Assembly (NCBI GenBank): GCA_019915135.1
Contig: JAHLMK010000005.1
Location: forward strand, 2,666,001-2,730,000
DNA: 64,000 nt
Reading direction: 5' to 3'
Source of the DNA: Strobilurus pachycystidiatus
Taxonomy: Eukaryota > Basidiomycota > Agaricomycetes > Agaricales > Physalacriaceae
Part shown: positions 16,056-49,291 of the stretch, in pieces
Numbering within the stretch: position 1 is the first letter of the stretch
Layout: the number at the start of each line of letters is the position of its first letter
Notes under the pieces: generated by a model
What the model was told of the DNA's origin: nothing
What the model saw: the letters and a program-made list of their open reading frames with translations, nothing else
The model's database searches: none
Translations under genes and position numbers: made by a program

Positions 16056-16062
16056 GCATCGA
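16056..16062. repeat. Putative left target-site duplication GCATCGA
   Basis: GCATCGA directly precedes the left inverted repeat of island 2. The same heptamer, same orientation, directly follows the right inverted repeat at 49285-49291. Seven bases match exactly and an eighth position differs. This is what duplication of a target on insertion of one 33-kb unit would leave. Confidence 0.6.
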
Positions 16063-16119
16063 CAAAAAGATGACACTCTAGTCTTAAGTTACTCTGGTGA
16101 TCACCGGGGTGAGCATGAG
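16063..16119 (+). repeat. Left terminal inverted repeat of island 2
   Basis: Reads inward from CAAAAAGATGACAC to TCTTAAG and then GGTGATCACCGGGGTGAG. The reverse complement of 49228-49284 matches it with a few substitutions. The inner core GGTGATCACC is itself a perfect 10-bp palindrome, a likely transposase contact. Confidence 0.78.
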
Positions 16120-16226
16120 CCATGGCTAATCTTATGTTTTAATCTTGAGCTGGAAATTCTGGTATATTGCATGGTATGCCATTCATTGGTACACTAATAC
16201 ACACAATGTATGATACTTACACTAAG

Positions 16227-16500
16227 CTTGAGCCAAACTCAAGCCGAGTGACTCTAGTTGGCGACACTGACTTGAGTGGCGACACCCGAGTCGAGCGACG
16301 AGTCGGACGATACAATAAACTTGAGCCAAACTCAAGCCGAGTGACTCAAGTTGGCGACACTGACTTGAGTGGCGACACCCGAGTCGAGTGACCACCGACT
16401 CGTCGCGAAAGTTGAGTCGGAAACTTGAGCTGAAACTCGAGTTAACGGTACTCAACTTGAGTGTACAGCTTGAGCTGAACTCGAGTTCGGCCTTGGGCTC
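16227..16500. repeat. Left subterminal ACTCAAG/ACTTGAG array with 93-bp tandem duplication
   Basis: A 93-bp unit starting CTTGAGCCAAACTCAAGCCG at 16227 is repeated at 16320. Both units, and the sequence after them, are dense in ACTCAAG, ACTTGAG and ACTCGAG hexamer/heptamer variants on both strands. The same heptamers recur at 49060-49170 just inside the right end. These are probably binding sites of the element's transposase. Confidence 0.78.
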
Positions 16501-17451
16501 AACTCGCGCCACTGAATCGTCCAAACGGGGAATTTCGGGATGGACGAAGCCGGACCAGGTAAGTAGTCGGGATTGAGATGGATTGTGAGAGGGCACCAAA
16601 ATACCCAATTAGCCGCGTCGAGACTGGTAGTACGATGGAGAGGGAGAGAGAAATGTTAGCACGGAAACGATACAGAGAGAAAAGAATCCGACGCACCTAA
16701 CCAAAATCCTCGCTGACGTCACGTCAGCCGTCCTTCGTCGTGTCCGCAACACACTAATCCTCCATCCCAAAATTTACTTGCGACGCGGGACCGGCGAGAG
16801 TACCATTGAGAGCGTCGTCGCTGCCGCATTGTAAGCCTGTGGTCGTGGGGGGCGTCGTCGGGGTGGTCGTCGTCCCCATGGTGGTGGTCGTCGTCGTCCT
16901 GGTGGATTCGTCACGCCATGTCAACGAGAGAGCAGCGAGAACGTTGTCGCTGGGGTCGTCGCCACTGGATAGTGGCCCGTCGTCGTATGAGGCGTCGTCG
17001 GGGGATCGTCGTCGCCGTCGTGGTGGTGGTTGATGGAAAAGAGCAAATGATTAGTCAGCTGTCAGACACGGCAACGTGTCCAGGCCGTATTGATGTCCAA
17101 AGTGCATAGGCACCAGGACAGGCACCGGCGTCACCGCCACAGATAGATGAGATTATGGATGGAGATATCGCGATGACAAGTCCGTAAGTACTTCGTATCA
17201 GGTAGTCGTCGATGCAGGGGAATAGGATATGGTACGGAAGGATAGCACGAAAGATACAATACAACTAAATGACGACAACATATGCAAGGGGAAATACAAC
17301 AAGAATAGACAAGAAAACACGCCAGACAAGAAAACACGCCAGACAAGAAAACACGCCAGACAAGAAACTGCGCCACACTCCGCGCCACACCATTACGATC
17401 ACAGATTCATCTGGGGTAAGATAAGCAGCGGAAACCCTTCAAGAAAGAATG
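16501..17451. other. Non-coding left arm of island 2, low-complexity GTCGTC tracts
   Basis: About 950 bases without a supported gene. The part at 16806-17033 is a run of GTCGTC/GTGGTG triplets (open on both strands because of composition). A frame on minus would give Thr/Pro-rich protein, but it has no start or splice support. Confidence 0.5.
17309..17359. repeat. 17-bp tandem repeat, three copies
   Basis: ACAAGAAAACACGCCAG occurs three times head to tail (17309, 17326, 17343), followed by a partial fourth. Recent slippage-type repeat just downstream of the small gene at 17452. Confidence 0.85.
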
Positions 17452-17940
17452 TTACATTACCCTAGTATGTTCTTCCAGCCGGAAGAACCATTCCCTCGGA
17501 CGCCGCTCCTCCGGCTCAATCCCAAATTGCCTCTTCGCCTCGTCGAGCCTCGATCCCTCCGTCCTGTCGTAGACGAAACACTTCGATGATTGGCGTCCCT
17601 TTCCCGCCCACTCCACCGTCCCCAAGCTCCAATTGTCCTGCCCGTATACCCGGATGGTAAGATGCGGCTTCTGCAAGCTTTCTGTGTTTGCGGGAGGCGA
17701 CAGATGGAAGCCGGAGGGCCTGGATATACGCTCAGACGATTGCAACAGCCGCAAAATGGAAGAAAAAACGCACATAAGTACGAAATGCGCCGCATCGTCG
17801 CCAAACTTGGAGGCAAATTTCTCGACCGCGTCCCAAAGCGCCATTTCGGCGTTGCTGTATTGGGTGCGCGCGTAGGGTCGCAGTAGCTCCGCCGGCGTCG
17901 GCTGGCCTTGCAGCAGATATTGGGACATAAGGGCGGCCAT
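17452..17940 (-). CDS. Small unrecognised cargo protein
   Basis: Open frame of 162 residues from ATG at 17940, starting MAALMSQYLLQGQPTPAELL. The N-terminal half is helical-looking (ALWDAVEKFASKFGDDAAHF). The middle, near residue 65, has HLSPPANTESLQKP. The C-terminus is basic and aromatic (PREWFFRLEEHTRVM). No family recognised. A GTACTT donor-like site follows DDAAHF, so an intron through the middle is possible, but the only acceptor found shifts the frame, and the single-exon reading is kept. Located at the left arm of the giant element, reading toward the left terminus. Confidence 0.4.
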   Translation of the reverse strand: MAALMSQYLLQGQPTPAELLRPYARTQYSNAEMALWDAVEKFASKFGDDAAHFVLMCVFSSILRLLQSSERISRPSGFHLSPPANTESLQKPHLTIRVYGQDNWSLGTVEWAGKGRQSSKCFVYDRTEGSRLDEAKRQFGIEPEERRPREWFFRLEEHTRVM

Positions 17941-19070
17941 GACGGATTTGGTCGACGTGAAGAGAGGCGGCGTTTGTGAGGCGGGAACTTCCTACTTGGG
18001 TAATCTCCATCTTGATCTCTGGTTCCTTGTCCGCTCACCATCACCACACTGGCGTCCTCCCTCCTTCTCAATCGACCACCCAGTGGATCACCCGCATGAT
18101 AACGGCGACCGAATTGACAACACTGACGGAATGAAACCGCCGGCAGACACAAGACGCGTGTCAGACTCCAGGACGACGGGAGCCATAGCTGTAAATCCTA
18201 GCCAAAAGAAAACCGTTACAACGGGTGGAAAATAAGTCAAACGCCCCGTTGCAACGGTGGCTTACCTAAGGTGACCCACCTGCTCCCGCGCGGTCCGTTT
18301 GCCCTGGTGCACGTGGTTGCGCGCTCTTTCCGCCCGCCCGCCAGCCCCTCCCAAAATGGTCGGCTCGAATCTGGTAGTGGCTCGTTGCCGGTGCGCCGAT
18401 ATCCTGCGGGGTGCGAATGTGATCGCACGATCAGCACCCCGGCATTGCTATGCACCGCCGCCCCCTGGCCCGCTCTGCTAGCGGGCGGCTCCTTTGCGGG
18501 TGCGCTCCCACTATCGGTATTCAGACATTACCAACAGGACATTGCAGCCTTCTGTACGGCAGTAGTAGCACCCATCACCATACCCATAATATTAATGCGC
18601 CACACATACGCTGCTAGAATTTTCCACCGGGCTATTATGGGCCCACCTGATCTGATCCACTGCACTCATCCCTCCAGCCACCAGTACAGTAGTAATCAAT
18701 AATAATATGAATCGCTCAATAATACGCCACAATAAATCCGCTACTAAAAAATTTGCGGCAGCCTGCGCTCCGCAATTCGATGTTTGCAGTCACCCATGAA
18801 GCACTCGGCAGTCCGAACTCCCTCTGAAAAATCTTGACGGACGAAGGACTTGTTAAATTGAGGTATCAGGTAGCCTCGGCCCGAGGAATCCAACCACGTG
18901 GCAAGCTGAACTTAGCGCAGACGCCTTGGCTGCTTGAGCCCAGCGGTTTCTTGCGTTCGACAGATATGGGAACGGGCGCCACAATCATATGAATTGCATG
19001 TAAAAACTAAGTACATGCAAGACACACGTCGGCACATCGCAATCAATCAGAAAGTACGTACTCTATGCCG
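17941..19070. other. Spacer inside island 2, no gene supported
   Basis: Upstream region of the small gene at 17452, then downstream region of the large acidic gene at 19071. Contains a GC-rich part (18240-18500) with the 12-bp palindrome CCGTTGCAACGG and an AT-rich part (18540-18780). Plus-strand frames such as 18271-18702 have no motif. It may hold remains of an older insertion, but no terminal repeats were found. Confidence 0.4.
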
Positions 19071-22053
19071 TTACTTATCACCTTGGCCTTCCACTTCCAT
19101 CAACACACCTTTCATCGCCCACCTTACCTCCGCCAGCGCTTTCACCAATCCATCCTCCTGCGCTGGTAACGCTTCCAACCACCATGATAACGTCGCGACT
19201 ACCGACAACAGCCCATTTTGGCCGGCTAATTGCAAGCAACCCCAATCTCCGCCATACTCTCCTCGAATCCAAACCCCATCGCCTCCTTTGTTTCGCCACG
19301 TTGGTTGCATGCTATCCCACCATAGCCACCACGCCGCCTCAAATTTTGCGACCGTTCCACTGCGAATATGGACTCGTGCGCCACGCGTTCGGCCCTGGCG
19401 CAACCACTGCGACAACTCCGACGGACGATACTTGGATGGTAAGCCCTTCCGTCCAACCCCACCCTCGTCTATGCCATGCTCACACTCGATTGCAATCAAC
19501 AGGCTCAAGATCTCCTCGAGACTTTCTGCGCCGGCAGCCTCGCGAAATTCCATAACGGGATCCTTCAACCACGACGCATCAAGCGCCTCTAGCCGGTTTG
19601 ACAGATCGTTCCTTGTTGAAACGGATTGCACGATGAAGGTTGGTGGAGGGTCCTGTGGTTTAGGCGGGGGAGGCGAGGACGCGTCAGAAAGTGCGAAGTA
19701 AGTCGATGCAGGTGAACTCGTGGAGGGAGGATCTGCCGCCATGTCCTGGACGGCTGCCGTCGTCTCCTCATACGGTCCCAGTCCTCCCACCGCCATCTCG
19801 AGTCCGCGAAAGAATTCTCCCATCTCCGCATCAACCTCTCCTCCTCCAAAGCTCATTCCAACATCCAGCACGACTCCTCCGCCCCCAAACTTCATTCCGG
19901 CATCGATCTCCCCATTCATAGCCGTAGCATCCACATTTTGCGCATCCCCGCCCCACAGCAGGCCCTCGTCAAACCCAGCAGCGACTTCGTGAGCGACAGG
20001 CGGAGGAATATCCCAAACCACAGGTTGAAAGGTGGGTGTCTTCTGAGGCGCCGCGTCATCCATCATGTTTACATCCCCGTCCCTCGCAGCTCCTTCGCCC
20101 TCTTTATCAGCGCCTTTCGCGCGTGGTTTTGGTTTGGGTCGAGGTCTTGCCGATTGTGTCGCCTCCTTCATGAGCGCCTGCTCAGACAACCCGGCGTTGA
20201 CGTGTTTCACCGGCTTCGCAATCGATTCCGTCCGCGACAGCTTTGCAGCCTTCGTCTTACGCCTCCCATCTTCCACCTCGCCCGCTTCCCTTGTTCGTTT
20301 CTTCTTCAGCCGTTCATGGTTCTCTTTTCCCCTCTCAACGCCTGACTTCCGCATTGGGTGCTCCTCCTCGTCGTCCTCAACCTCCTCGTCCTCGCCCTCC
20401 TCGTCCTCATCATCATCGTCCTCGTCCTCGTCCTCGTCGCATGACGAAGAGAGTTCATCGTCATCCGCGGCCGACTGTAATGGGTCCAACATCTGCTCTC
20501 GAAGCTCCTTTTGGCCTTCGGCCATCTGCTCCTGGCTGTATTCCTTCCCATCCCCACGTGGCTTGACGGCCTCCTTCTGCGCGTCCGTCATGCACAACAT
20601 GGAGAAAGCCTTGATATCCTCAATAAGCTCCGTCATCTTCTTTTCGCCCCACCACTCGGGAAATGTTCGCGGCGTGCTCTCCAAGCTTTTCCTGGTCGAC
20701 ACGCTGTACGAAGGTTAGTGAAATCACATCTTTCATTGCAAACCTTGTCACTTACATCACTGAACCAGCGTTGCCCCCAAACTTCGACATTGGTCCGGCG
20801 ACGATCGTCAAGCAGATAGTCTGGGTACGCTCCTCGACGCCACGATTTACTCGGCTCAAGAACGCCAGACTGTTGTCAACGGCGCTGAGAGTTCGTGAGT
20901 GAAAAGACAAAATGCCGAAGACTGCATAAACTTACCTCGCTATATCAACAGGGTCTCTCGACGGTCCAGCCTTGAGGCGCTCGTCATACGTCTTTCTGTC
21001 TTGTGCGGCCTTCTCTTTTGCCCGTTGCGCAAAGCCTGCCTGCACATCTTTACCGAGACGGGCAAACATGGCGCGGGCAACGCCTTCGCGCTGGTTGATG
21101 CAACCTCCCCCTTTTTTCTTGGTTTGCCTGTCGATCTTGGGCGCTTCCCGATTCGTATTCGCCATGATGGTCGTGTCGGCGAGTGGAGGAGATGGCATAG
21201 TAGACGGACGAAGATCAACCGGCGCTTCCAGGTTCGTATTCGCCACAGTGGTCGCCTCGGCGAGTGGAGGAGAAGGCGTAGTGGACGAATGGGTGGGAAT
21301 GGACTCGAGATGCGACTCGGCTGTCGGAAGAGTTGGGGCAGACACTGAATCTGAGGTGGCGGTCAGGGGGATGAGTCCGTCCAGGTCGGCAGCAGTGATA
21401 ACGCGAAGGGTCTCAGGGAATCCCGACGAAGGCGCTAGGCCACCAGATTGGGTCTCTATCTCACCGTCAATCTCCACACCCCTCTCGCACATGAACTGTT
21501 GAACAGCTGAACGAGCGCGAACGGGTCGTTTGACGCCGACGAGAGAAGACATCAACTCCTCGAAGGTATCCGCGGTCGACGAACCGGTCAATTTGTTGCG
21601 CCGGCGCCTCTCCTTCCTGAAACGGTATGCGCACCAAGCCGCAATTCGCTGTACATTCAATGATTTAACAATCCAGGTTAACGAATCATTTCGCCAACAT
21701 ACCTTGTTCATGTGCAGGATGTGCTTTCCCTTCGCTACCACCTCTTCGGCCGTCAAATTGGAATCATCGGCAGGGGGTGCTTTTGGGTCGTACAACCGTA
21801 TCGACTCCGGTTCTTGCCAGTCAAGCAAAGGCCAGGGAAATGCACAATGGAATCGGTTTTGAATGTCCTTCATGGCGACCGCTGCATCCTGCCAGCTCCG
21901 CTCAACCGCATCGAAGTACGCGGGAAGTAACGGCGCCACCAGCGCCTCGCGAGCTCCGTCCATCCAGCCTTTCTCGTTGCGGCGATCCTTCTTCGAGATT
22001 GTGGCGCGCTTATTCTTGCCCTTTTTCTTCGTCGCCGTAGCATTGCGAGCCAT
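19071..22053 (-). CDS. Large acidic cargo protein with Trp-rich C-terminal domain
   Basis: Start chosen at ATG 22053 (MARNATATKKKGKNKR); an upstream in-frame ATG at 22134 is possible. The N-terminal domain (residues 20-150) has WMDGAREALVAPLLPAYFDA and DIQNRFHCAFPWPLL and ends with a basic patch FRKERRRRNK. The next piece, RARSAVQQFMCERG, resembles the first helix of HMG-like boxes. A Pro/Ser/Thr linker follows, then TRKSLESTPRTFPEWW, a long Glu/Asp tract and a nuclear-signal-like KKKRTREAGEVEDGRRKTK. The C-terminal domain is WLRQGRTRGARVHI, AKFEAAWWLWWDSMQPTWR, DWGCLQLAGQNGLLSVV. This Trp-rich module recurs in many Agaricomycete predicted proteins of unknown function. Introns: 21649-21702 (54 nt, stop-free, multiple of three) and two near 20890-20940 and 20702-20755. 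Nuclear role inferred only. Confidence 0.65.
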
Positions 22054-22190
22054 GATACGTCGGTGCGGGCGGTTCGTCGGAAGAGGGGGACCGTGTGGTG
22101 GCGTATAGTCATCGCCCGGCAGATGCGCGGCCATCAACCCACTGGATATTTCACATCGCCACTTCAAATTTCACTCTCCTCAACACCCTC
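22054..22190. promoter_or_regulatory. Bidirectional promoter between two cargo genes
   Basis: 137 bases separate divergent ATGs at 22053 (minus) and 22191 (plus). The pair is head-to-head like the gene pairs of the Plavaka elements, so shared control is likely. Confidence 0.4.
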
Positions 22191-23030
22191 ATGGCGGACA
22201 GCATGGAGCCCCAAGGAGCCGTCGCTGCGGATGTTGCGTCGCCTCCTTCGAGCCGTCTGTCGCCGACAGCGCCGCCTTTTCTCCCGCCAACCACCAACAG
22301 TATGGTCATCAACCTTGACGACGGTGACTCCGACGAGGACAACGCACAGGACGCCTGCGACTGTGGTGAGAACTTACATCGTCACAGAATCTGTCTTAGC
22401 ACTGATAATCATGCATAGAATCTGGTGTCTCCGTTTTCAATGTATCGTCGCATCAACGCCTCTACTTTCCACCCGGATTTGTATATGATCCCGAAATTCT
22501 CCAGGAGGATTATGTCGACAAGGATCATCCCTTCCGTGTTGGTCTCACCTTCGACACCGTACCTACGGAGCCGCTTCGCCCTACCTTGATCCCACTGCGT
22601 TCGGATGCGAAGAAGGTCCATTTCTATGTGACGACTATCGGGCGTAAGGTCGGCATTGTCCTTGATTCGTGAGTTCTGTCACTTGTCTTCAGATTGGGTG
22701 CTTATTGACCTGACCATCACACAGGGAGGAAGGGCGCGCGCTTGCCACTGGCGTTAGCGACGGCAACAGTATCAAAAAGGGGTCCCAGACCATCGCGCTG
22801 AAGATGTTCAACGATCATCTGGCAGCTGGCCGCGTCATCGTCCGGCAACCGCGCGTATCTCAACCGTAGGTCCCTCTCATTGCTTTAGCTTGGCGTTACT
22901 GACACATTGTCACCTCGTTGATAGTGACATTGTTATCACGGCCCGTAGCGGAACAATTGTTCTGAGTGGAATCTTAGTCGTAGTCGTCCCTGTGCTCCTC
23001 GCTACCCTTGTTTTGTATCTGCGCCGCTAA
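22191..23030 (+). CDS. Tail-anchored membrane protein of unknown family
   Basis: Four exons joined by three GT-AG introns (22365-22418, 22669-22725, and 22869-22924 approximately) keep one frame from ATG 22191 to TAA 23028. The N-terminus is low complexity and acidic (INLDDGDSDEDNAQD). A compact domain follows: FNVSSHQRLYFPPGFVYDPE, DHPFRVGLTFDTVPTEPL, VHFYVTTIGRKVGIVLDSEE. The extreme C-terminus is a single hydrophobic helix, TIVLSGILVVVVPVLLATLV, followed only by LYLRR. That is the layout of a tail-anchored protein with its domain in the cytoplasm. No known transposon function needs a membrane anchor, so this is unusual cargo. The domain was not recognised; the IGRKVGIVLDS patch is faintly like the RNase H1-N module of the next gene. 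Confidence 0.6.
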
Positions 23031-23850
23031 ATCGATATTCCTTGCCTCTCTTCCTCTTCCCCTGACCTGACAATTATGGCTGGCCGTCAGGATGACCCCC
23101 ATTCTATAATCTGGATCAGCTCCGACGATGAAGCAGACCCCATCGTGATCCACCCGTCGCCAGGAGACAATGTTGAGGACGTAGTCCAGGCACTGTTAGC
23201 TATGTCAGTCCGAGAACGAGTGGATCGTACCCTCTATCGCATCGACGGTCCGCGTGGCGTCCAATTTACAGCTAACTGGGATGTTTCACCGACCGTCCAT
23301 TGCACTAGTGCTCACACCTCCCCAGGTCTCACGCAGGTTCGAGTCAAACCAGGAACGGCTCCCATGTGGAAGCTGTTCAAAGGCGGGATCGCCGACAGCG
23401 CGGCAAGGCGCACGCATATGTCGTTTTTATCGGGTCAAAGACTGGTGTCGTTCCCACTTGGTAAGTCCTGATTCACCTTCTTAGACACTGATAGACCAAT
23501 CCATATATAGGGATACGTGTTCCGCCTACACCCAAGGCGTAGCCCTCAATATTGCGCAGGGATTCAAGTCGCGACTGGCGGCCATCAGCGCACATGCTTA
23601 TGCGGCAGAGTAGGACCTGGTCGAACTATCGGACGACCGCGCCAAGCATTCTTACGCCCTAGCGTATGCCGTCTTCACTCCCCATTCTGCGCCCGAATTT
23701 CTCCTGCCAAACCCAATATCTCAGGGAGCCACGTCGTCTGGCTACTGGGTCGTTTATGTCGGCGTAACCCCCGGAATTTATGGTACCTAGTGAGTAATTC
23801 CCTCTGGCGAAATCATGTACTCTCACTCACAAGGATGACAGTGTTGAGTC

Positions 23851-24447
23851 TAGGGTTTGAAAGTTCAGTTGTCAAAACTGCAACTGAACCGAGAAAAACC
23901 TGAACTGAGCCCGCAGTTTAACTTCCAAAGGTGTTTTTAAGAGAACTGAAGACCAGTCTCAGTTTACAGTTCTATCATCTCACTACATTAACCCACAACT
24001 GTGAAAAGACTGGTTAAACCGGTTAAACCGCACAACAGTTTAACCGGTTTTAGACCGGTTTAAACCGGTCTTTTGACACCCAATTTTGTTTTTTTTAGTG
24101 AAAGATGTCAGAGAGTCTTCCTGGAGCTCTAAAACACATCAGGTTCCCGTCTGTTTGGCGCAGTGGTTAGTAGAAATGGCTCAGAATGGCCCGGGCTCAA
24201 TTCCTGGATAGTTCATTTTGCAGCTGGGTAATGATAAAACCGATCTTGAACTGGTTTAAACTGGTTTAACCGCACAGACAGTTAAACCGGTTTAACTGGT
24301 TGCTCAAACTGTCTCAAAACCGGTCTCTTGAGCAACTGCAGTTCAGTTGTGAGTTGCTTGAAAAACTGTAAGACCAGTTTACATTTCAGTTGTGGTTTTC
24401 TGAAAATCTTGGGAAAAAACCCAACTGAACTGAACTTTCAAACCCTA
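23851..24447. mobile_element. hAT-type MITE, 597 bp, with perfect TIR and 8-bp TSD
   Basis: TAGGGTTTGAAAGTTCAGTT at 23851-23870 is repeated as its exact inverse complement at 24428-24447. The octamer GTTGAGTC lies directly outside both ends (23843-23850 and 24448-24455). A 20-bp TIR starting TAGGG with an 8-bp duplication is the hAT pattern. No coding capacity. The interior holds several AAACCGGTTTAA-type palindromic motifs on both sides of a tRNA-like segment. It inserted in an exon of the RNase H1-N gene; the host reading frame is continuous if the element and one octamer copy are ignored. Confidence 0.93.
24156..24207 (+). other. tRNA-like A-box/B-box segment inside the MITE
   Basis: TGGCGCAGTGGTTAG (24156-24170) matches a Pol III A box. 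GGGCTCAATTCC (24193-24204) is close to a B box. The sequence around the latter folds as a T-arm: CCGGG (24191-24195) pairs with CCTGG (24203-24207) around a 7-base loop. Flanking bases do not form an acceptor stem, and box spacing is a few bases short, so it is a remnant or a SINE-like promoter, not a working tRNA gene. Confidence 0.45.
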
Positions 24448-24644
24448 GTTGAGTCGGCGTGGCAGTGTGTTGGTGTACCGGGTGGTCTATACGAATCTTT
24501 CCAGACAGTCGAAGCTGCCCGTGGAGCGTGGAGCGATGCAGTATTCGGGCGAATCGTGCGCGGTTATGTTGATCTTGGAATGTGGTAGTACGATGCCGAT
24601 GGATTCACTAGTACTGCCACATGCATATTAATTTGTAGTCGTGC

Positions 24645-25355
24645 TCAGGCTTCATACGATTGATACAAAAGCTTTCCTGCCTCCTCACATTCCAGCAAGT
24701 CGTCTGCCGCAAAGTGCGAAAAGACATCTCTGATGCAATCAGCAATGCTCTCGAGTCGATCTACCCCTTCGCCTAATGTCTTCATCAGCTTACTGTCCTC
24801 TCGAAGCTCGCGCTCCAATTTGGCCTCGTTTGCTATATCGATTCCTTTGTGCAATACGGCACTGACAGTGGTACAGACGTCGATGAGCGTCTGCAGCGTC
24901 GCATCTTCGGGATGATCGATACCGTAACGCGTCCATCGCTTTGCCCACCGCCGAACGTTATTGTCCGTGAGCACTCTGATTTCTGCTAACAGTATGGCCA
25001 TCTGCCTGGCAAATTTTCTGCTCAACGCGCTCTCTGCATAGCTAGGCAAGGCAATCAGCACCCGACTACATCAATATGGCTTTGTATACGTACGGCTTAT
25101 TCTCGATCTCGTTTGCACTCTGCTTGACTGGGTTCGACGGCTTCGACGTTCCGACACTACCAGCGAGTTCTCTCTTGGACTGATACTTCTGCTTGGCCAG
25201 AGCATTGTAATGCTCTCGCTTTCTGTTATATATCTCTATCAATGTGCTAAGACGAGGTCTGACGAGCGAGCTTACTTCTGCCAATGTTTGCGTTTGGTTT
25301 CTTTCCGAGCAAATGCTCTGTCTTCGTCGGTTTTGTACACAGCCTTGCGACCCAT
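24645..25355 (-). CDS. Small basic/helical cargo protein (MGRK-type start)
   Basis: ATG at 25355 begins MGRKAVYKTDEDRAFARKET, an Arg/Lys-rich helix. A 53-nt intron (acceptor after ATATAACAG) joins it to KKREHYNALAKQKYQSKREL. A further exon gives ESALSRKFARQMAILLAEIR, NNVRRWAKRWTRYG and LESIADCIRDVFSHFAADDL before the stop at 24645. A second intron lies at about 25037-25084. About 200 residues, almost all helix by appearance, with a strongly basic first quarter typical of short DNA-binding or nucleolar proteins found in Agaricomycete transposons (KRK...AKQKYQSKRE pattern). No defined family. Convergent with the RNase H1-N gene. Confidence 0.55.
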
Positions 25356-25952
25356 ATCTCCGAGACGGGATCCCCACCAACGTATAGGAGAAGTTGCCAA
25401 CGTCTGACCAGGCCCGAGCGCCGTAGATGAGTGTGGAAGCTAAGAGATTGAGATCCACAATTATGGCTTTGCGTACTTCGGCCCTTCCTCTCATCTCTCC
25501 TACTCTCGTGTATTTACTAAATCCGGGATTGCTTACAGTTTCTCGAAAGCATTGACTCGTCTTGTTCCCATGGCTGCACCCAACCTTAAGTGAGTCGCAA
25601 CGTCAACCGTGAACAATGTATTATACAGGCAGTTCATCGCAAAGCACGGTCAGCCCTAGACAATTATTTTTCGTTCTCATAATTCCCCCCTTAGTTTTGA
25701 CAGACGTCCAAGGCGAACGGTATGGTGGCAGAAACCGTAGCCCGACAGATAATCATTGATGGAGGGTAAGACGCTGTGCTCTACGAGCACAAGTAAATTC
25801 CCTAGACATTTATTGGCACAGGTAACGCATCGTCGATTTCTCAGATGCCTAGACACTTATGCACCTCGGCCATTGCCAATTCACGGCCCGTATCCTCGCG
25901 GGCGGCTCGTTTTGCAAATTTGTCGTTGCGTCCCCTTTGGCATACTCCCCTC
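25356..25952. other. Spacer, possible alternative first exon
   Basis: Upstream of the small gene on minus and of the gene on plus at 25953. A minus-strand ATG near 25571 with a good GTAAGC donor could be an alternative first exon of the 24645 gene, but the frames do not join convincingly. Nothing else seen. Confidence 0.35.
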
Positions 25953-26712
25953 ATGGCGTCCCGCGCAGCCAACGTCTTGGGTCCTAGCTTGATTGACCCC
26001 CGACTCGCCGCCCTCGCAGCGCCGGCTGCGCCACAGACTTTGGCTCCACCCACGACATCGAACCGTGGACAGTCACACCTCCGAGTTGCTCGTGCTTTGT
26101 ATCGGTAAGAGACATGCAAAAGATGGGAGAACTGCTGGTGCTGACACCAATACACAGCCGACGTTTTCATAATTCCCAGCCTATTAGGGTTACTCGCAGT
26201 CTGCGGTTGCTCCCGTCATCCTCGCCGTGAGAGAATCCTTACCCTCAATTGACCCCGCTGTAACTGACATGATTGTCAGTCGACGCGTCCAGATAGTGTA
26301 TGACTCTTTGATGGCTGCAATCGAAGACGAGTTCCGTCGTTACGACGTTTACACCGAACTTCAACTCCCACACATCTTCGTACGCCAGCACATCCGTGCT
26401 TTGCTGGCGGACACCTCCACACCTTACAAGTCATTCCTGATAATGTTCGAGAAGATCGCAGTTATGGCAAATGTTTTGAGGGAACTCACGGTGTCACTGA
26501 CGGAGCTTTGTGGCGTAGACCCGCAGTTCTGGATTTCTGTCACTCAGGTCCGGCGGCGCCGGATCCCAGTGGATCGAACATTTGAAACAGTGCTGCATGT
26601 ATTCGGGCGCGTCGAGTCTGGTGTAGCGCACGGCGTAGAAGCGGACGAGGGCCTCGCCGCTCTCGCGCGGCAGTTTGCGTCGGACGTCCCCGACTTCATA
26701 GCTACACTGTAG
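25953..26712 (+). CDS. Unrecognised cargo protein, structure tentative
   Basis: Two open pieces. The first, from ATG 25953, reads MASRAANVLGPSLIDPRLAA and a Pro/Ala linker and ends at a GTAAGA donor near 26106. The second runs from about 26188 to TAG-type stop at 26712 with SQSAVAPVILAVRESLPSID, YDSLMAAIEDEFRRYDVYTE, FVRQHIRALLADTSTPYKSF and FETVLHVFGRVESGVAHGVE. The second is a well-formed all-helical domain of about 170 residues. I could not find an acceptor that joins the two in frame: the CACAG acceptor at about 26156 leads to an early stop. The pieces may be one gene with an odd splice, a frameshifted gene, or two genes. Family unknown. Confidence 0.38.
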
Positions 26713-27016
26713 TCTTTGACGAATAATACTGAGCGACCTTTGAGATAAGATACACGAGCTCGCACTTGATAAGAATTTGAATAGTTCGGCCGTCGCTAAT
26801 AATTTGACCCATGGTATCTCGTAGACAGCGCATTTGCCACACCAACGAAAGGCACCAGCGAAAGGCACACACGACGTCGTGTTCTCCAGCCACCAGAGTC
26901 TCCCGGTGCAGTGCTAACGGTGGGGGACTCAATTGATTAGATTCATACTCTCGTGAAATAGACCGTCACAGGCAGAGGAACAGAATCTAAGAGAGGTACA
27001 AATCAAATGACTGCCC
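26713..27016. other. Spacer between cargo genes
   Basis: Three hundred bases downstream of the helical protein and of the mini-gene on minus. Antisense frames here are shadows. Nothing else seen. Confidence 0.35.
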
Positions 27017-27347: not shown

Positions 27348-27545
27348 ATCTGGGGAAACCGACGGTTGTGCTCGATGTTGGGAACTAGGTGGGGAAACTT
27401 GACTGCTGCGCTCGATCAGAATTCCGTAGCGGTATTTATGATATGTGGCAAACAGGCAGATTGAGCCATGCGGGGATGAATTGGATTTACTGACCTATTT
27501 CAAACGCATTCTCATCCAGAGTGACGCTCTTGCCCACCCGCCCTC

Positions 27546-28288: not shown

Positions 28289-28396
28289 TACCGTAGTCAA
28301 ACATGCATGTCGTTGGTTGGTCCTGATCATGATGCACTCTATCACTTCCAATGGAAATTCGTTTTACGCCGCCCCTCTCGCCTTGGGAGAGCTACC

Positions 28397-31734: not shown

Positions 31735-31779
31735 AAGCTATGAAAGCTCTGAAAGCCAAAAAGCTACAAAAGTGATTGT

Positions 31780-38695: not shown

Positions 38696-41600
38696 ATGCC
38701 CCGCGTTCTCATTGCCTGCGAGAACCCCGAATGTTCACGGGAATTTTCCACTTTGAAGGGGATGCGCAGCCACCTGCGGCAGGCCGCGACTTGCAAATCA
38801 TGGATTTCTGCGTCAAAAGCTCCTGCCCATCTCGCCGGTGCCACACAAATCGCGGCTGTGACGCTGGAACCGGAACCCTCGACGTCCAATCCATTTTCGG
38901 ACGCCGTCGATTTCTACGGTGCCGTTGAGGAGGAGGAGGATGGTTCGGACGAGGTCCAGAGCGTTGTTGTAGAGGACGACTCCTCCATGGATGAGGTTTT
39001 CAACTCGGGACAAGGTGACGACGGCGATGAGGAAGAAGAGCTGGAGGATGATGCTGAAGAGGATGCTGATGTTGAGGAGGATGAAGATGCCGGGCAAGCT
39101 TTTCGCGAATGGCTGGAGCAAGCCCAAGCATCGGAAGTGTTCGAAACCGTCGACAGCTTGCCAGCCATCGGACAGGCCGGTCCTGGGCCCTCCACCCAAC
39201 GCATTCGAATGCAAACTCTGCTTGGCGGACGTGCGCGTTACCTGGACGACGATGACGACGATGAGACTTCGGACCGTGTCTCTGACCAGCACCCAACAGC
39301 CGGCTCGATTCTGCGCATGTCAGATAACGTACACGAGCAATGGGCCGCCCTTTTCGGAACGCCTTTGTCTGCCGATGTTGTCATGGATGGCGAGGGGGCA
39401 GCGGACCTGAAGGACGTTGAGTGGTATAAACCTTTCGCGTCACAGCTCGATTGGCAGATTGCCCAATGGATGGTCACCGAAGGCATCGGTCATAACGCCT
39501 TCAATCAGCTGTTGAACATCCCGGGCGTAAGTTCCCTCATTCTTCATATGCATTCATACTCATCTTGTGCAGGTGAAAGACAAACTCGGCCTCTCATACA
39601 GCAGCACCCGTGGTCTACACAAGATCGTGGATTCCCTTCCTCGCCGCGCTGGCGATTGGAAGGTGAAACAACTCTCCTTCCCTGATCTCCCCAACGACAA
39701 GTTCACACTGCGTCACCGTGACATTCTTGACTCCATCCGCTCTCTTTGGGGAGATCCTGAGTTGGCCAACCATCTTGTCTACAAGCCGAGTACTCTCTTC
39801 AGTGACAAAAAGCGGGATCGTCGCTTGTACAATGAGATGTGGACATCAAAGTGGTGGCATTTCGTGCAGGTAAGTCCTCCTCCAGCGTTTTCTGATTAAC
39901 CCTTGATTGACCTGTTAATAGGATAAGCTCCCCGTCGGTCATACTGTCGCACCACTTATTATCTCGACGGACAAGACTCAGCTAACCCAGTTTTCGGGCA
40001 GTCGCCAAGCGTATCCAGTATACCTCACCCTCGGAAATATACCCAGTCATATCCGTCGCAAACCATCTGAACTGGCATGTATCTTGATCGCATACCTACC
40101 CATCGACAAAATCAGCAAAGGTCAGATCTCGAAGAACGCCATGCGCTCGCGATATCAGCGGCTATTCCACGCCGCCATGAGCGAGATTTTCGCTCCACTT
40201 GTCGATGCTGGGAAGAGTGGTGTCAAGATGACGAGTGGTGATGGTGCTGTGCGCATCGTCCATCCCATCCTGGCGAGCTACGTTGCCGACTATCCCGAGC
40301 AGTGTTTGGTGACTTGTGCAAAGTACGGGACTTGTCCAAAGTGCCGATGCGATGCGACGGAACTGGGAGATGAGGGGTCGTTTGAGTTGCGCACCCCAGC
40401 TTGGACGTTGGGTGTCATGTCTGATGCGAAGGAGTCCGCGACATCGACAAAGGCCTATTTCGACACGTGTATGGCAGAGTGTGTATCTGGTCATGTGCCA
40501 GAGCCCTTCTGGCGCGATCTCCCTTACACCAATCTCCATCTCAGTACCACCCCCGACGTCTTGCATCAGCTCTATCAGGGCGTCTTGAGACACTTGATTG
40601 AGTGGTGTCAAACTCTCATGACGGAGGAACAGATGGACCGCCGTATTCGCTGTCTTCCTCCTGGCCTTGGCCTGCGTCACTTCAAGAACGGCATCAGCGC
40701 GCTGTCACAGATCAGTGGGTCTGAGCGCAAGAACATGGGCAAAATCCTCCTCGCCTGCTTAGTTGGCTCAGACATTCCCGACCGTGGTGTTACGGCTTGC
40801 CGCGCCATTCTTGATTTCATCTATCTTGCGCAGTACTCCACTCACGACGACGAGACGCTTGGGTATATGGACACTGCTCTCAAAACTTGGGATACCAACA
40901 AAAGTTATTTCATTCATGTACGTTTTCTCTTGATTGTGTGTTGGGCTTATACTGATAGCAACCAGGTTGGTCTCCGTGAACACCTCAATATTCCCAAATT
41001 CCACTCCCTACGACACTACGTTGCGTCTATTCGCATGTTTGGGGCAACAAATAATTTCAACACTGAAATGTTTGAGCGCCTTCACATCGACTTCTCCAAA
41101 AAAGGTTGGCGGGCATCGAATAAGCGTGATGAATATCCTCAGATGACGACGTGGGTGCTACGTAAAGAGAATGTTCACGCTTTCACTCGGTACACTGCGT
41201 GGGTTAAGAAACAGATTGGTAAGATCACTATTTATTTTCCGTTGCAATTTTTATTGATTACAGTATGGTGATAGCTCCCACACCCAAGCCAGATCCACCG
41301 AAACCTCCTTCTCCTCCATCTAGTGGTCGTGTACAAAAGGTCCTTCTACCGATACATCCCAGCATTTCCAACAAACCTCTCCGCCGTATAGCCACCCAGC
41401 ATCATGTTCCCTTATTTTCATCGCATCTTCTAGCTTATATTCAAGCTGTAGGCCGTGACAAACTGGGGGCCTCAGCGATCAACTACACGACGCTACCCTT
41501 CGATGGCGTCGATATATATTATTCATTCAAGTTTGGGCGTGAAGGAATCACGGATGATTTTGAGACTCGAGACGTAGTGAAGGCCACTCCTCAGGATGGC

Positions 41601-42104
41601 GGGCGGTTTGATACGGTGATTGTCTTGACAGGCGATGAGGCAGAGAGTGCTGGTCTTGATGGTCAGGCTTTTTCCATTATGCTGTTGAATCTTTTCTCAT
41701 GAATTACAGGTACACGTGTTGGGCGCGTACGTGTTATATTCAAAATTCCCGCCAAGCTCATGCTTCATGGAGTCTTGGTTCCAACCCCTTCACACTGGCC
41801 GCGTGATGCACTTGCTTATATCGAGTGGTACACCAAGCCTGTTCTTACACAGAAGGGGGCACGAAGTCATCACATGCCATCATTATCAAAGGCATACATT
41901 GCAGACCGTCAAACACGTCACTGGTCCATCATTCCGCTCTCAAATGTTCGACAGAGTGCACATCTCACGCCTGATTGGGTCAAATGTTCTGTTGAGCAAT
42001 GGGATATTCCAATTTCGACAAGTTCCGTTTTAGATACATGTGATCATTTTTTCCTGAATAATTGGCTCAGTCTCTATACATATCAGACTGTATACTTAGC
42101 ATAG
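38696..42104 (+). CDS. Plavaka transposase with C2H2 zinc finger, apparently intact
   Basis: ATG 38696 gives MPRVLIACENPECSREFSTL with C-x4-C...H...C spacing, a C2H2-like finger. A long acidic stretch is followed by WYKPFASQLDWQIAQWMVTE, VKDKLGLSYSSTRGLHKIVD, then the Plavaka signature APLIISTDKTQLTQFSG, AYPVYLTLGNIPSHIRRKPS, and the motif CAKYGTCPKCRC. Also SGDGAVRIVHPILASYVADY, LHLSTTPDVLHQLYQGVLRH, IPKFHSLRHYVASIRMFGAT and EMFERLHIDFSKKGWRASNK, all expected in order. Exon joins are at 39525-39572, 39870-39921, 40918-40964, about 41220-41264 and about 41670-41710. The C-terminal 200 residues end with a stop at 42104. No stop or frameshift was found, so this copy may be able to move itself and relatives. 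Acts in the nucleus on the 29-bp TIRs. Confidence 0.88.
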
Positions 42105-42459
42105 AGATATTCAAAGATTAGAAGTTGTATTGTATCGCATTTGAAGTCAACTTGATACAGATGTCATGGGAAACAAATAGTTAAGTGAGTTTAAGTTACT
42201 TGAAAGTGTATGCGTGAAAGCAATTGAGTTTAGATACTTTATGGTTAGTGTATAAGATACACCAATTTGAGGTTGATTATACATGATTTATGATAGATGT
42301 CTCACAAACAGGTGAGTTAAGATGCTTACAGATGTCTTGATAGCTATCGAGCGCAAGTACGAGAGTCGAATGCTTTCATATGCTTTTAGATGCTTTCACA
42401 GCCTTAAGTCACTTTGGTAGCTTGTAGATGAAGGTATCTAGTACATCTAGCTTTAGTTT
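42105..42459. repeat. Right subterminal region of nested Plavaka
   Basis: AT-rich, with many GAGTTTAAG, GATGCTTAC/AGATGCTTT and ACTTGA-type motifs complementary to those at the left end. No gene. Ends at the right TIR. Confidence 0.6.
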
Positions 42460-42488
42460 ACTTAAGGCAATAGGGTGTTTCGTGATGT
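42460..42488 (-). repeat. Right TIR of nested Plavaka element
   Basis: Exact complement of 31689-31717. It is followed at once by the truncated Spt5-like coding sequence. Confidence 0.95.
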
Positions 42489-45077
42489 TCCAGACGACGC
42501 GACAGCGATTGGCAGCATGCCGCTCGTTTGGCCTACGAAGACGAAGAAGCTCATTCCGGACCAACAGAGGACTCTCCAGACAGACGGGAGCAATGGAACG
42601 AGCTCTCTCAGACCATCGCCCATCGCCTCCATCACGACGCTCAGCCAAAAGACGGCGTAATTGATGTATGGCCCAGTCCAAAAACCCCTTCCCAGCCATG
42701 CGTCTACATCGCCACCAGGGGGACTTTCAACTCGTTAATGGAACTCCTTGTCGACGATCTTGGCCATGCGAAATACGGTCTATCCCTCAGAACCATGCAA
42801 CCACTTCAATCTCCCACTGAGCGCCTACGCGCATGGCGCAGTAGTCGAGGTGTACGCGAGACATTCACCAAATGTTGGGTTACCATTCGAGGGGGGAAAT
42901 ACGACGGTGATATTGGTTGGGTTGAGAAGGACTACAAGAGTACCTGGTGTACGGTTAAAGTCGTACCGCGGATCTCTTTCAGATGGCAGCGAACGTTTGT
43001 GGGCGAGGGCGATCCTACAGAGGAAGAAGAGCGTGACGCTCAGTCTGGCAAACGCCCTACCGACCGAAATTGGACATCTTTTCCTCGCCGTATTCCACCT
43101 GCACCTGGCACTCGACATCCCCCCTGCCTTCTCGCTAAAGAAATCCGCTCAAAGCTCTCAGTCAGCAAAGACAAGCATCCCATAGTTCGTTACGAGGAGA
43201 CGGGCAGTACTGCTTTCGTGGCCGATTTCGCCCTGATCCAGGTCCGCCGTTCGCATATCTCCATCGCCATATCCACACCTCCCTACATCCACAATCAACT
43301 CATGCACTGCGAAGATCCCGAAGCGAGGTCAGCTCTTTCCTTATTACCTCCAGCGGAAAGTGGGATCTTTGAGACTGGCGAGATAGTGGAGGATGCTCGA
43401 AACGGACTCAAAGGAGAGGTCCTGTCATCTCAGGATGCGTTGCACGAAGCGGGTGGGCGCACCATCTTATCCCAATCCGTAACTGTGCAGCCGCTTGAGG
43501 ATGGATTGAAGGCCGTGGAGATCGAGAGGAGGCATATAGTTCGCGTGTTTGAGGTGGGACAGGAGGTGGGTATATGGAACGGCGGTACGAAGATGTCTCA
43601 TGGATGGGTAATAGCGACAAGTTCTGCGGGGAGAGAGCCCTCTCAAGGAGAACATCATATCAGGCGGCGTCGGCAAGACCGACATATCACGGTCCTTATC
43701 TACTGGACCGGCGAAGATTCCAAGGAGATTTCACCCCAGGTATGTATCTATGCTCGTCGATTATCAGAGACGAATTCATTTGACGATAGGTCGTGAGAGT
43801 TCACAAGAACAACTGTGTTCACATCACAAGCAACACGCAACCGCCAGAGCGCCTCACTGGGCGGCCATTGTACACACTCGCACCACCGCCGCCTTCTAGC
43901 GCAGAGCCGCGCCGTCCCGTTAACCCTCTCCACGACAACCTCGAATACGATCCAGTCAAGGGCATGTTTACCAATCAGGTCACCTTTCGTCCAGAGATGA
44001 TGTACAGTGGAAACGTTCCTTGGTTTTGCCGCCCAGTGGTTGTCCTCAACGGCGAATACAAAGGACGCACAGGGACAGTTGAGGATGTCATCAAAGACGA
44101 AAAGACCATCAGCGGCCTTAAGATTCTCGTTCGCTTCGATATGCTGCGAGCTATGGAAGGACTCCTGGAGAAGTGGTACAGCTACGGGCAAGTCGTAGAT
44201 CCCGAGTGAGCAGTTCTTCTTCTTTAGCCAGAACGACGTGAATTGACACTCACATAGAACACATTGGCCTCTTCGGATCGTTGCTCCTCTCAGTCCGCTT
44301 CACCACAAAAGTGGGTTCCACGGCAACCAGGCTTTCTACGAGGAGGAGCTGTCCCAGAATCATCCCGTGTTCCGTGGAGCTCGCGGCCAGCCAAAGGAAT
44401 CGGACTTTGACAGGTCGTTTCAGGCCTATGTCCCGCCCGGGGAAGGACCTTGGAGTATCACTGAACAAGATCGCACAGAACATGGCATCACGCACTCCCA
44501 TTTCACCAAGACCATGACCTACAACGACAAGGTCGCCTGGTGCCTGCAGCCCCACCTCGAGAACTTGAAGATTGTCGTACCCACCACAGGAATCAAAGTT
44601 AGAAAGAGTAATGGCTCTTCAGGGAAGGGGGAGAGGTTGAAGGAACATTTCGCGACGGTTCAGCAAGTACGCCTCGACAACAAAGTTGGCGTATATCGAA
44701 TATTGAAGGGCAAGCGATTACCTCAGGCACTCGTTCCCAGTCAAATACAGCTGAGGCATCCCGGAGCAAAGCCCGCTGACGGTCACTGTTGGTTCGTCTT
44801 CCGAGGTGATCATATTGGGAGATATGTTCGACCCATTCGCTGGGTTGACATGAAGATGTTGTCTGGGGAGAAGAAGCCGGCTTGGACAGTCGTCGTTGTT
44901 GAGCGTCAAGGACCCGGAAAGCCCGACAAGATTACTGATGACCACATTACCGTTCTCAACGAGGATCTCATCATCTTGGAGCGCGCTTCGAATTGGAAGG
45001 AGACTGACAAGGAAGTTTTGGCGCTACGGGAAAAGAGTCGAAATGGTAGTGCCAAGATGGTGATAGAGGCTATATGA
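42489..45077 (+). CDS. Spt5-like protein with NGN-like and KOW-type domains, 5' truncated
   Basis: Spt5 is the elongation factor that rides RNA polymerase II. The reading frame is open from the first base after the TIR: RRRDSDWQHAARLAYEDEEA, with no in-frame ATG, so the start is lost. An NGN-like part (CVYIATRGTFNSLMELLVDD, LQSPTERLRAWRSS) leads to the first KOW unit CWVTIRGGKYDGDIGWVEKD, CTVKVVPRISFRW, which is the canonical Spt5 spacing. A second is VGQEVGIWNGGTKMSHGWVI and a third RPVVVLNGEYKGRTGTVEDV. The C-terminal part has FRGDHIGRYVRPIRWVDMKM and ends at 45077. Two introns (near 43741-43789 and 44208-44258) join in frame. It is not the housekeeping Spt5: acidic N-terminal and CTR repeats are absent and it sits in an element. 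Such KOW proteins recur in KDZ elements. Confidence 0.72.
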
Positions 45078-46324: not shown

Positions 46325-49004
46325 ATGAAGCCTTACGATCTGAAGGCAGAAGATCCATGGCTTGCGAGCAAATACGATCCGAATACCCTTCCCGCAGACC
46401 AGCTCAGGCAACCCTACCGACGAAGCACGGGGGAAAACCAGCTGACGGCCGAGCAACTCACCCTTTTGTGGACGTTTGCGCCGGAATGGGAGTCTTTGTG
46501 CAAGAGCGTCAAGGGCAGTACCGAGCAGAAACGAGCCTTATGGGTGAAGAAGGCGACGGACGCGGCGTTTAAGCATCGCGTATTTCTGACCGATAATGCC
46601 CCACTGTTGAAGGTGGTGAGTTGACTGGCGCGAGGTCGTTTTGTCCTGGTAGCGTCTAACGTGCTTGTAGAAGGTCGTGAAGTGGTTTGCAAACAAAAAG
46701 ACCCACTACATCGACAAGGGGAAGAGCTTTAAGAAGGCACCTGATTTCGGGCACGACAATGAGGGCGACGACGAAGAGGGCGACGACGACGACGACGACA
46801 ATGGGGAGGAGGAGAGTTCATCTGGACCTGCTGTGAATAGGCGGGGCCTCCTTCGTTTCTCTAACGTTCTACGCGGGCAGCAGCTGTTCCAAGAAGAACA
46901 GCGCGAGGACGTTCGGGAGCGCGCTCAAGAGCTCAAGAGCCAAGTCAAGGACGGCAATAATGGCGCTGCTTTTAGCAAGGCCGCATCCGAACTCTGGCAG
47001 GCGCTCACGGAAGAAGAGCGAGTGGAATGGGAAGCCAAGGCGAAGAAATTGGGCTCTCACGAGAGGTAGGTTCTCACCTCGAGGGTGACCTGGATTCCTT
47101 GTTGCTGATTTGTGTCCCTAAGTACGCTCTTGCGATTGCCTCTAGCCGTCCGGCAGGTATCGGATAAGCTGGCCAAGGAAATTGAGACTATCGGTGGGCC
47201 CGTCGCAGTTACGGTCATGTATATCTTTCGCGATCGAGTGAATGGATCTTTGGATGGATCTGTGTACGTCGAGGATTTCACACCATCATCTCTGCATACT
47301 GATATACCTACAGCATCGATTCATCTGCTTGCGGGAAAGAGGCATGCATGATGTCCGAGGTGCTGGGGTCCAACGTTCTAACAAACTTATCTGCATGGTT
47401 CAATAACAAGTGTCCCTGTGAGTGTCGACTTGATTCTTAAGTTCCGCGACTGCCTCCCTAATCTGAGGTTCTAGTGCCAGTGAAACGGTCTCTAACCTTC
47501 CCAACGGACGACGAGAACTTGCCCCGCTTCCCGGTCATAGACCTGGATGCTCAAACGGGAGCGGAACATAACGTTGTGATTGAAGAGTATATCGCTGCCA
47601 TGTGGTGTACGTTGAAACGCTTCGTGTCTTGTTTGTGATAGATTCTGACAATTTTGAAGCTTCAATCTACGGCACTACGACTCTCAATCGCATCGGACTT
47701 GGGGCTAAGCCAAGTGACTTCTTCGACACATCGGCGTGGCCCGAAGTCGAGGCATATCTGACCTCTACCAAAGGAGCCGCGATACACGCTCAATTACGCC
47801 TCTCAGCGATAACTGCGCTAATGACCCGCTCGAACGAGGATTCATCGAATCCCTTCCGTTTTCTGTCGTCACCTCAAGACTATCCACGTAGCAAGTCGGC
47901 CACACCACCACCCACGCCGCCGCCGAAGGATCAGGACAGACCGGCGCCGCGAAGTCCCTCGTTGCCTTATCCAGGGGATGTGGTCGATACAATGCCAGTC
48001 GCGGACACAGACGTCCAAGCAAAGCCGGCATCACCAAAGGTCGGACCGAATTCGCCAGCCAAGAGATCGGAGCGTGGGGGCAGGGGTGGTCGAAACACCG
48101 TTGTAGACGAGGATACGATAATGACGGACTATCCGTGAGTGAATTTCGAGTATATCTGCTGCACTTTTCTGACGCTTATAGCAGCGTCTCGACGGAAGCA
48201 GCGCCAGAGTTAGGAGCCTTACCGAACGTCGACTCAGATGATATTATAAGGGACTCAGTAGCAGTCGAAGAAGGGTGAGTGTCTCGAGAACTTGGCGGAA
48301 GCTTGCTGACATTGTACAGTGATGACCATCTGACACCGCTGAAGTGGAAAAGAAAGTGAATTCACGCTCCTGTGTGCTATTGAATCGTCCAACTGATTGC
48401 TTCCCTAGACAACAGGCCATCAACGTTACCGAGGCGCCTAAGAAGGCTAGAAAGGCACCCGCGAAGTGAGCATCCGCCCCACCACTACCGTCATCGACTC
48501 AACCGTCACAGAAAGGTAAGAAACGATGACGACTCGGAGGCGCCTAAGAAGGCTAGAAAGGCACCCGCGAAGTGAGTATCCGCCCCACCACTACCGTCAT
48601 CGACTAAACCATCACCCAACAGAAAGGTAAGAAACGATGGCGACTCGGAGGCGCCTAAGAAGTCGAACAAGTCAGTAGGGAAGTGAGTTTGTTTACTCCG
48701 ATTCATGTTATTTGTATACTGAAAGTCCACGAGGAGAACGCGGACGGGCAAGGAAAAGGCACCAGAGTCTTCATCGCAGGACGGCGCTGTGGCTGCCGAA
48801 GGCTCTAACGCGGCCTCTGGTATTTCGGAGGAGCCCCAACCCAAAAGGTGTGAATGGTTTAAGCTTGTTGTTGCCCCATGCCGATCTCCGTTGGTCTACA
48901 GACCTAGGTATGCGTATGTGCATCCGTCAGAGCTGCCCGTACCCTTGTTTGACGCTAAGATTGATACTTCTCTCACGCGTGCCTCGCGCCGCGCGCCGAA
49001 GTGA
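46325..49004 (+). CDS. HMG-box-like cargo protein with repeated C-terminal exons
   Basis: ATG 46325 begins MKPYDLKAEDPWLASKYDPN. Helices TAEQLTLLWTFAPEWESLCK and VKWFANKKTHYIDKGKSFKK are followed by a run of Asp/Glu, then LLRFSNVLRGQQLFQEEQRE, FSKAASELWQALTEEERVEW, EAKAKKLGSHE, an HMG-box-like DNA-binding pattern. Later exons give LAKEIETIGGPVAVTVMYIF, SEVLGSNVLTNLSAWFNNKC, EHNVVIEEYIAAMW and EASIYGTTTLNRIGLGAKPS, then a Pro/Ser-rich region. The last part is many tiny exons, including duplicated units at 48431-48690, ending with SEEPQPKRCEWFKLVVAPCR and a stop at 49002-49004. The gene ends about 55 bases before the subterminal array. It probably binds DNA in the nucleus. Exact splicing of the last 500 bases is uncertain. 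Confidence 0.6.
48431..48690 (+). repeat. Tandem duplication of an exon-intron unit
   Basis: GAGGCGCCTAAGAAGGCTAG starts at 48431 and again at 48537, and GAGGCGCCTAAGAAG at 48648. Units are 106 and 111 bases. Each holds a coding piece (EAPKKARKAPAK) ending in a GTGAGY donor, a short intron and an AG before KG/KK. The third copy is cut short and diverged. Splice sites were duplicated along with the exon, so the protein gains lysine-rich repeats. Confidence 0.85.
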
Positions 49005-49059
49005 TTACTTGCCGGGTTGGCATCGGCACATGTAGCCAGGTAGTACGCAAGCTTGTAAT

Positions 49060-49170
49060 TTCTCAACTCAAGCATACGCACGATTTTGAGTCCAACCATC
49101 AGCAATTACTCAAGTTGTGATTTAAGTTTACTACTCAAGTTGTGACTTGAGTTACGACTCAAGTTCTGGC
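49060..49170. repeat. Right subterminal ACTCAAG/ACTTGAG array
   Basis: CAACTCAAGC, ACTCAAGTTGTG, ACTACTCAAGTTGTGACTTG and GACTCAAGTT within 110 bases. Same heptamers as the left array, placed just inside the right TIR. Confidence 0.78.
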
Positions 49171-49227
49171 AGCTTGATTGATAGATGCATACATGTTTCG
49201 GGTACCAAATAATGAGATGAGCGATAT

Positions 49228-49284
49228 CTCATGCTCACCCTGGTGATCACCGAAGCAGCTTAAGATAAGTCGGTCACCTTTCAT
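49228..49284 (-). repeat. Right terminal inverted repeat of island 2
   Basis: CTCATGCTCACCCTGGTGAT, then CACC, then CTTAAG, ending in GGTCACCTTTCAT. Its complement aligns to 16063-16119 without gaps. Confidence 0.78.
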
Positions 49285-49291
49285 GCATCGA
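49285..49291. repeat. Putative right target-site duplication GCATCGA
   Basis: Second copy of the heptamer at 16056-16062, same orientation. Also noted: the left copy is followed by C, the right by A. Confidence 0.6.

Follow-up and report, generated by a model that had tools for sequence, protein, structure and literature searches.

The window, the whole 64,000-nucleotide stretch of Strobilurus pachycystidiatus DNA analysed here, corresponds to C5:2666001-2730000 in a genome of 51.8 Mb and 61 contigs. Between two copies of GCATCGA it holds an outer KDZ element in two separate segments, a second KDZ element (element B) whose right end is missing, and a Plavaka-B element, together with the genes of each (Table 1). 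The gene models came from a home-made predictor trained on the long ORFs of the window and of 13 fetched loci, and are approximate. At 17457-18041 the predictor picked another frame, where we judged the ORF given in Table 1 likelier, and its extension of the KDZ model of the sister copy C27 into the left segment was judged doubtful.

Outside the element, the MBOAT ORF that the first-pass annotation had placed next to the right end was recovered (49775-50971, 8.5e-16). The ORF beside the left end (14427-15797), called an F-box gene there, had no Pfam match at E 0.001. A TEA/ATTS-domain ORF (60923-62155, 5.2e-16) and an F-box match (1.4e-4 at 5588-6316) were also observed in the flanking DNA.

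Table 1. Features of the composite locus, in window coordinates
Feature	Position	Strand	Remarks
Left TSD of outer element, GCATCGA	16056..16062		Abuts left TIR
Left TIR of outer KDZ element, 5'-CAAAAAGATGAC	16063..16119	+	43/57 match to right TIR; nine genome-wide pairs
Outer element, left segment	16063..18179	+	C27 alignment: 2100 bases with 5 mismatches, plus a 17-bp gap
Left subterminal CTCAAG/CTTGAG array	16120..16500		11 motifs versus resampled mean 0.3
179-codon ORF	17455..17991	-	Part of left segment; shared with C27 and the C1:6066k copy; no Pfam match
Presumed left TSD of B, ACGACGG	18173..18179		Suggested by the junction; right copy missing
Nested KDZ element B, lacking its right end	18180..31689	+	Sharp left end GAGCCATAGCTGTAA common to five other loci
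986-aa gene model of B	19071..22134	-	No Pfam match
High-copy inverted-repeat element inside B, ~600 bp	23849..24447		Flanked by GTTGAG repeats
KDZ transposase gene model of B	29658..31689	+	PF18758 2e-29, domain match 30283-30654; cut by Plavaka
Nested Plavaka-B, 10,798 bp	31690..42487	+	Termini CATCACG..CGTGATG; flanks TA/TT
716-aa gene model within Plavaka	34704..36967	-	No Pfam match
Plavaka transposase exon, 449 codons	39922..41268	+	PF18759 4.9e-83
Outer KOW-motif gene	42488..45077	+	Lacks the first ~150 of its 960 codons, which C27 retains
Outer element, right segment	42488..49284	+	19 mismatches in 6797 bases versus C27
Small gene model, weakly HMG-box-like C-terminus	46325..47069	+	HMG_box_2 E 0.0019, under Pfam cut-off
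Right subterminal CTCAAG array	49050..49227		5 motifs versus resampled mean 0.16
Right TIR of outer element, ..CTTTCAT-3'	49228..49284	-	43/57 match to left TIR; paired copies
Right TSD, GCATCGA	49285..49291		Abuts right TIR

Ends, subterminal arrays and target duplications

The 57-bp inverted repeats, the ACTCAAG arrays inside them and the GCATCGA duplication reported in the first-pass annotation were all borne out. The two repeats were identical at 43 of 57 positions, and a genome search with a 26-letter core of the TIR (up to three mismatches allowed) found 19 places, 18 of which formed nine facing pairs while one (C9) stood single; the reversed control pattern found 0 places. A 7-bp TSD lay directly outside CAAAAAG..CTTTCAT in all nine pairs. 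Eight of these were perfect (GCATCGA in the window, and GACAGAA, GCGCTGG, TCTTAGA, CTGCATC, ATAACGA, TACATGA and AAGTCTG elsewhere), and one, at C1:271k, matched at 6 of 7 positions (AATCCCG/CATCCCG). As every pair carried 7-bp repeats outside its ends, the outer ends of the window copy came in as one unit, in a single insertion that duplicated GCATCGA. The TSDs fixed the termini of the outer element as CA..AT. An alternative delimitation with a 6-bp TSD and CA..TG ends was ruled out, because the short copies establish a 7-bp duplication and CA..AT ends.

CTCAAG/CTTGAG occurred 11 times in 16120-16500 (random expectation: mean 0.3, maximum 3) and five times in 49050-49227 (mean 0.16, maximum 2), both far above the 200 first-order random resamplings, which were made for the window copy only. 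The full ACTCAAG/CTTGAGT motif was present six times in the left array, five times in the right array and once across the intervening 32.5 kb. All six short copies had the CTCAAG motif near both ends, at least twice near the right end, by plain counts.

Of the nine paired elements, six were short (1.6-2.5 kb); the others were the window copy (33,222 bp), C1:6046349-6066287 (19.9 kb) and C27 (18.9 kb). No empty-site allele, of the kind envisaged in the first-pass annotation, was found in this assembly: with both flanks joined as the query, the matches were this locus's own two flanks only.

The sister copy and the two nested elements

C27 aligned to the window at 16063-18179 and 42488-49284 only, with 99.7-99.8% identity (17-bp gap aside). 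The mismatch was 0.24% in the left window segment and 0.28% in the right, as alike as is expected if both ends derive from one recent element. Between the shared segments lay 10.0 kb in C27 compared with 24.3 kb in the window, and the two middles gave neither a blastn match (E 1e-10) nor, at the cut-offs applied, a tblastx match to each other. Past 18179, the window departs from the sequence common to C27 and the C1:6066k copy. Between its TIRs and their subterminal CTCAAG arrays the intact outer element, about 19 kb long, carries a gene for a CxC2-KDZ transposase and, divergent from it, a KOW-motif gene. Its KDZ class, proposed earlier, holds by way of the intact C27 copy, whose KDZ protein matched PF18758 (2.4e-11) and CxC2 (5.7e-27) in Pfam.

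Over about 2.2 kb (C27:211000-213200) C27 and the C1:6066k copy were mostly 97-100% identical, with one 200-bp block at 80%, and on either side the identity fell to 57-94%. Copies of the outer family seem to exchange sequence, and this tract looks like gene conversion. KDZ elements are abundant in the genome, with at least 174 matches to the KDZ transposase domain, exons being counted separately and 150 of 249 candidates scored.

Element B was collinear with C1:3965522-3977605 over 18180-31689 at 66-80% identity. C6:2258879-2268593 matched B from query position 3264 onward, plus one match further left, and shorter matches were seen at C26, C39, C7, C3 and others. A query over 18179/18180 gave eight matches: itself, two outer copies ending there (C27, C1:6064k) and five loci starting there or one base earlier (C1:3977k, C26, C39, C7, C2). 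The DNA outside B's left end, read for C1, C26 and C39, was unrelated, C1 and C26 being 99.6% alike over 240 bp and hence not fully independent. Position 18180 marks a transposon end. The sole copy of B with both ends and a TSD (CGGATGT, 7 bp) lay at C1:3964529-3977605 and measured 13,077 bp; B's left end, sought in C6:2255600-2257500, was not found there. The KDZ gene of B breaks at 31689, and its C1 and C6 relatives continue past this point, the former as an open frame. Two further observations concern the interior of B. Its second gene, the 986-aa model, is divergent, and the DNA of this gene was matched in C1, C6, C26 and C39. The ~600-bp repeat has more than 20 copies or fragments among those listed genome-wide, with 82-96% identity.

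The Plavaka element within B's KDZ gene resembles Plavaka-B (CMCT clade) in its PF18759 transposase, its CATCA..TGATG termini and the 2-bp TSDs of two other copies (CT/CT at C19, AT/AT at C6). For Plavaka-B, the accessible text of Kojima 2025 (PMC12730594) gives termini CATCA..TGATG and a TSD of 2-3 bp. The window copy differs in having no matching TSD (left flank TA, right flank TT), which we take as the mark of a deletion. A query over 42487/42488 found a full-length match at this locus only, and C27 has TT where the right Plavaka junction of the window lies.

These results change how the genes of the locus are read. The first-pass annotation saw a coherent gene set around a KDZ transposase; the genes stem from three different elements. 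The KDZ gene of the window, taken as the element's own, belongs to the nested B and is cut by Plavaka, and the outer KDZ gene is missing.

A probable deletion at the Plavaka edge and competing explanations

A three-layer nest followed by a deletion is the strongly favoured account of the locus: an outer KDZ element, B within it, Plavaka within B, and then a loss starting from Plavaka's right edge. The left flank of Plavaka lies in B and its right flank in the outer KOW gene, with TA and TT respectively, which is the signature of a deletion from the Plavaka edge. A deletion ending exactly at this edge explains the missing outer KDZ gene, the missing 5' end of the KOW gene and the missing right end of B. 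The protein-supported part of the outer KDZ gene (C27:213745-216931) lies wholly inside the missing 10 kb.

For the order of events, we infer that the ~19-kb KDZ element, presumably a cut-and-paste element, would have inserted first and duplicated GCATCGA. Element B would next have inserted into it at 18179/18180, and Plavaka-B would then have entered B's KDZ gene at 31689. The deletion would have come last. Running from Plavaka's right edge to a point within the outer KOW gene, it would have taken about 10 kb of the outer element, the outer KDZ gene included, as well as the first part of the KOW gene and about 1 kb of B. The likeliest route is that another Plavaka had inserted into the KOW gene at a TT target and that recombination between the two copies, lying in direct orientation, left a single one with TA/TT flanks. 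The TT of C27 at the right junction fits such a former second insertion. An allele or relative with two Plavaka copies was not found in the assembly. The identity between the window and C19 Plavaka copies was 98.4% and 98.6% near the two ends; with end identities this close, the ends, which were the parts compared, show no switch in identity as a trace of recombination. The outer TSDs still match, which makes a post-insertion exchange with a different chromosomal site unlikely. Both ends persist in the window copy but an intact KDZ gene does not, and the remnant would consequently move only if a relative supplied transposase.

The cause of the deletion is less firm than the nesting. The same three layers could have been reduced by the Plavaka transposase itself, through an adjacent deletion or alternative transposition that fused the right end of Plavaka directly to the KOW gene and required no further Plavaka copy. 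We hold this possible but the less probable course. This model predicts a junction precisely at the terminal base of Plavaka and unequal flanks, and both are seen; transposase-made adjacent deletions have been published for other systems, as far as the accessible parts of that literature go. Nothing decisive speaks against it; the TT at the junction suits either model, and such activity is presumed for Plavaka by analogy.

Long direct repeats are a known trap in which assemblies collapse, and two direct 10.8-kb repeats would invite exactly this error at a locus known from assembled sequence alone. The real locus, about 55 kb long, would then still contain the outer element in full and both Plavaka copies, and 11 kb would have been lost in assembly. 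This is unlikely: no second near-identical C27 KDZ region appeared among the candidates scored (59 of 198), in which five other loci reached 38-92% by stretch. As the cause, we put recombination between two Plavaka copies before an adjacent deletion made by the transposase, and assembly collapse last; the available data do not discriminate among the three.

The first-pass annotation read the locus as one native giant KDZ transposon of 33.2 kb carrying cargo of its own; this is very improbable. The TIRs common to both ends, the subterminal arrays and the perfect 7-bp TSD would all suit such a unit, but the other large copies measure 18.9 and 19.9 kb, the middle of C27 is different, and the middle of the window copy is made up of two further elements that bring their own ends. 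Full-length matches across either inner junction were confined to this locus; accordingly, nothing indicates that the composite ever moved as a whole. That two unrelated short insertions supply the left and right ends can be dismissed almost outright, as no point in favour of it was found, the TSD matches, and C27 and the C1:6066k copy each hold both end segments within one element.

The KOW-motif companion gene and the place of the family

The truncated KOW gene of the window is the second gene of the outer family. A KDZ gene that matches the C27 query along most of its length was found at C27, C1:6059k, C13:1464k, C23:229k, C3:118k and C1:6398k (59 of 198 candidates scored), and all six of these closely related loci had a divergent KOW gene 3.0-5.3 kb from the KDZ gene. 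Counted from the KOW side, the KDZ-KOW pair was present in six of nine closer loci (best match 62-99% identity); the window, C28 and C1:4735k had no C27-type KDZ gene among the scored candidates. At least three of five distant KOW loci (best match 36-47%), namely C7, C1:3415k and C9, had a divergent KDZ match within 10 kb among the matches listed. KOW fragments at C20 and C18 were left out of these classes.

A codon comparison of one exon of the KOW gene with four paralogues (441-443 aligned residues) gave dN/dS values of 0.14-0.17, with the C3 and C23 paralogues nearly the same sequence and the C1:6390k paralogue containing one stop. The window-C27 pair gave 0.15, resting on very few changes. 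These values indicate that the KOW gene is under purifying selection.

The protein has one KOW motif above the Pfam cut-off (3.7e-6), which it shares with Spt5 and other KOW elongation factors. A profile of seven exon sequences matched 5xon_W best in the PDB ('Protein that forms a complex with Spt4p'), with E 0.0015 for the whole chain and no single stretch significant alone. We take 5xon_W to be a yeast Spt5. The next match was 4ytk_A, SPT5 (E 0.54). Unlike Spt5, to which its similarity is weak, the companion protein gave no Pfam hit for an NGN domain. Pfam on the seven aligned exons returned nothing significant (best DUF3097_N, E 0.05, 3/7), and none of 7982 scored candidates in a large protein database reached E 0.001 as a homologue. 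A single-sequence PDB search yielded one methyltransferase, in two entries (E 0.23), and AlphaFold on the seven-exon alignment gave a pLDDT of 39, a fold that is unusable. The motif and the weak profile match suggest that the companion is akin to Spt5. A tentative extension, which we hold possible and no more, is that this KDZ lineage has fixed an Spt5-like KOW protein as its second gene, which the element may use for transcription of its long genes or escape from silencing, much like the presumed role of TET/JBP genes in other KDZ elements. No TET/JBP domain was found by Pfam among the proteins scanned; the second gene of the outer family has the KOW motif. A literature search, mainly of PubMed Central, returned no report of a KOW gene paired with KDZ or Kyakuja.

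Iyer et al. 2014 is the founding paper on KDZ elements. Both KDZ and Plavaka elements are already known from mushrooms, and the accessible text on Marasmius oreades counts them among the dominant repeats (PMC8290104). The outer element resembles Kyakuja in the CxC-cluster KDZ transposase of its intact copy (CxC2 being assumed to mark Kyakuja), in its 7-bp TSD and in its 5'-CA left terminus. It differs in its CA..AT ends and imperfect 57-bp TIRs (43/57), whereas Kyakuja in the Laccaria families has 5'-CA..TG-3' termini and no TIRs in the available portion of PMC12730594. With Zisupton and Dileera it shares the KDZ transposase domain, but its TSD is 7 bp compared with the 8 bp that the same portion reports for Zisupton and a Dileera family. 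As the TSD length fits Kyakuja and the TIRs and CA..AT ends do not, the outer element is assigned to the KDZ superfamily with the branch left unnamed, the comparison with Kyakuja, Zisupton and Dileera being made by their descriptions.

The ends, the target-duplication length and the true size of this family are now fixed, and the locus illustrates that an apparent giant element with cargo can be nested elements plus a deletion. More broadly, the findings point to a KOW-motif protein conserved as a partner of the transposase. If its kinship with Spt5 is confirmed, this would be a transposon bearing its own transcription-elongation-like factor.
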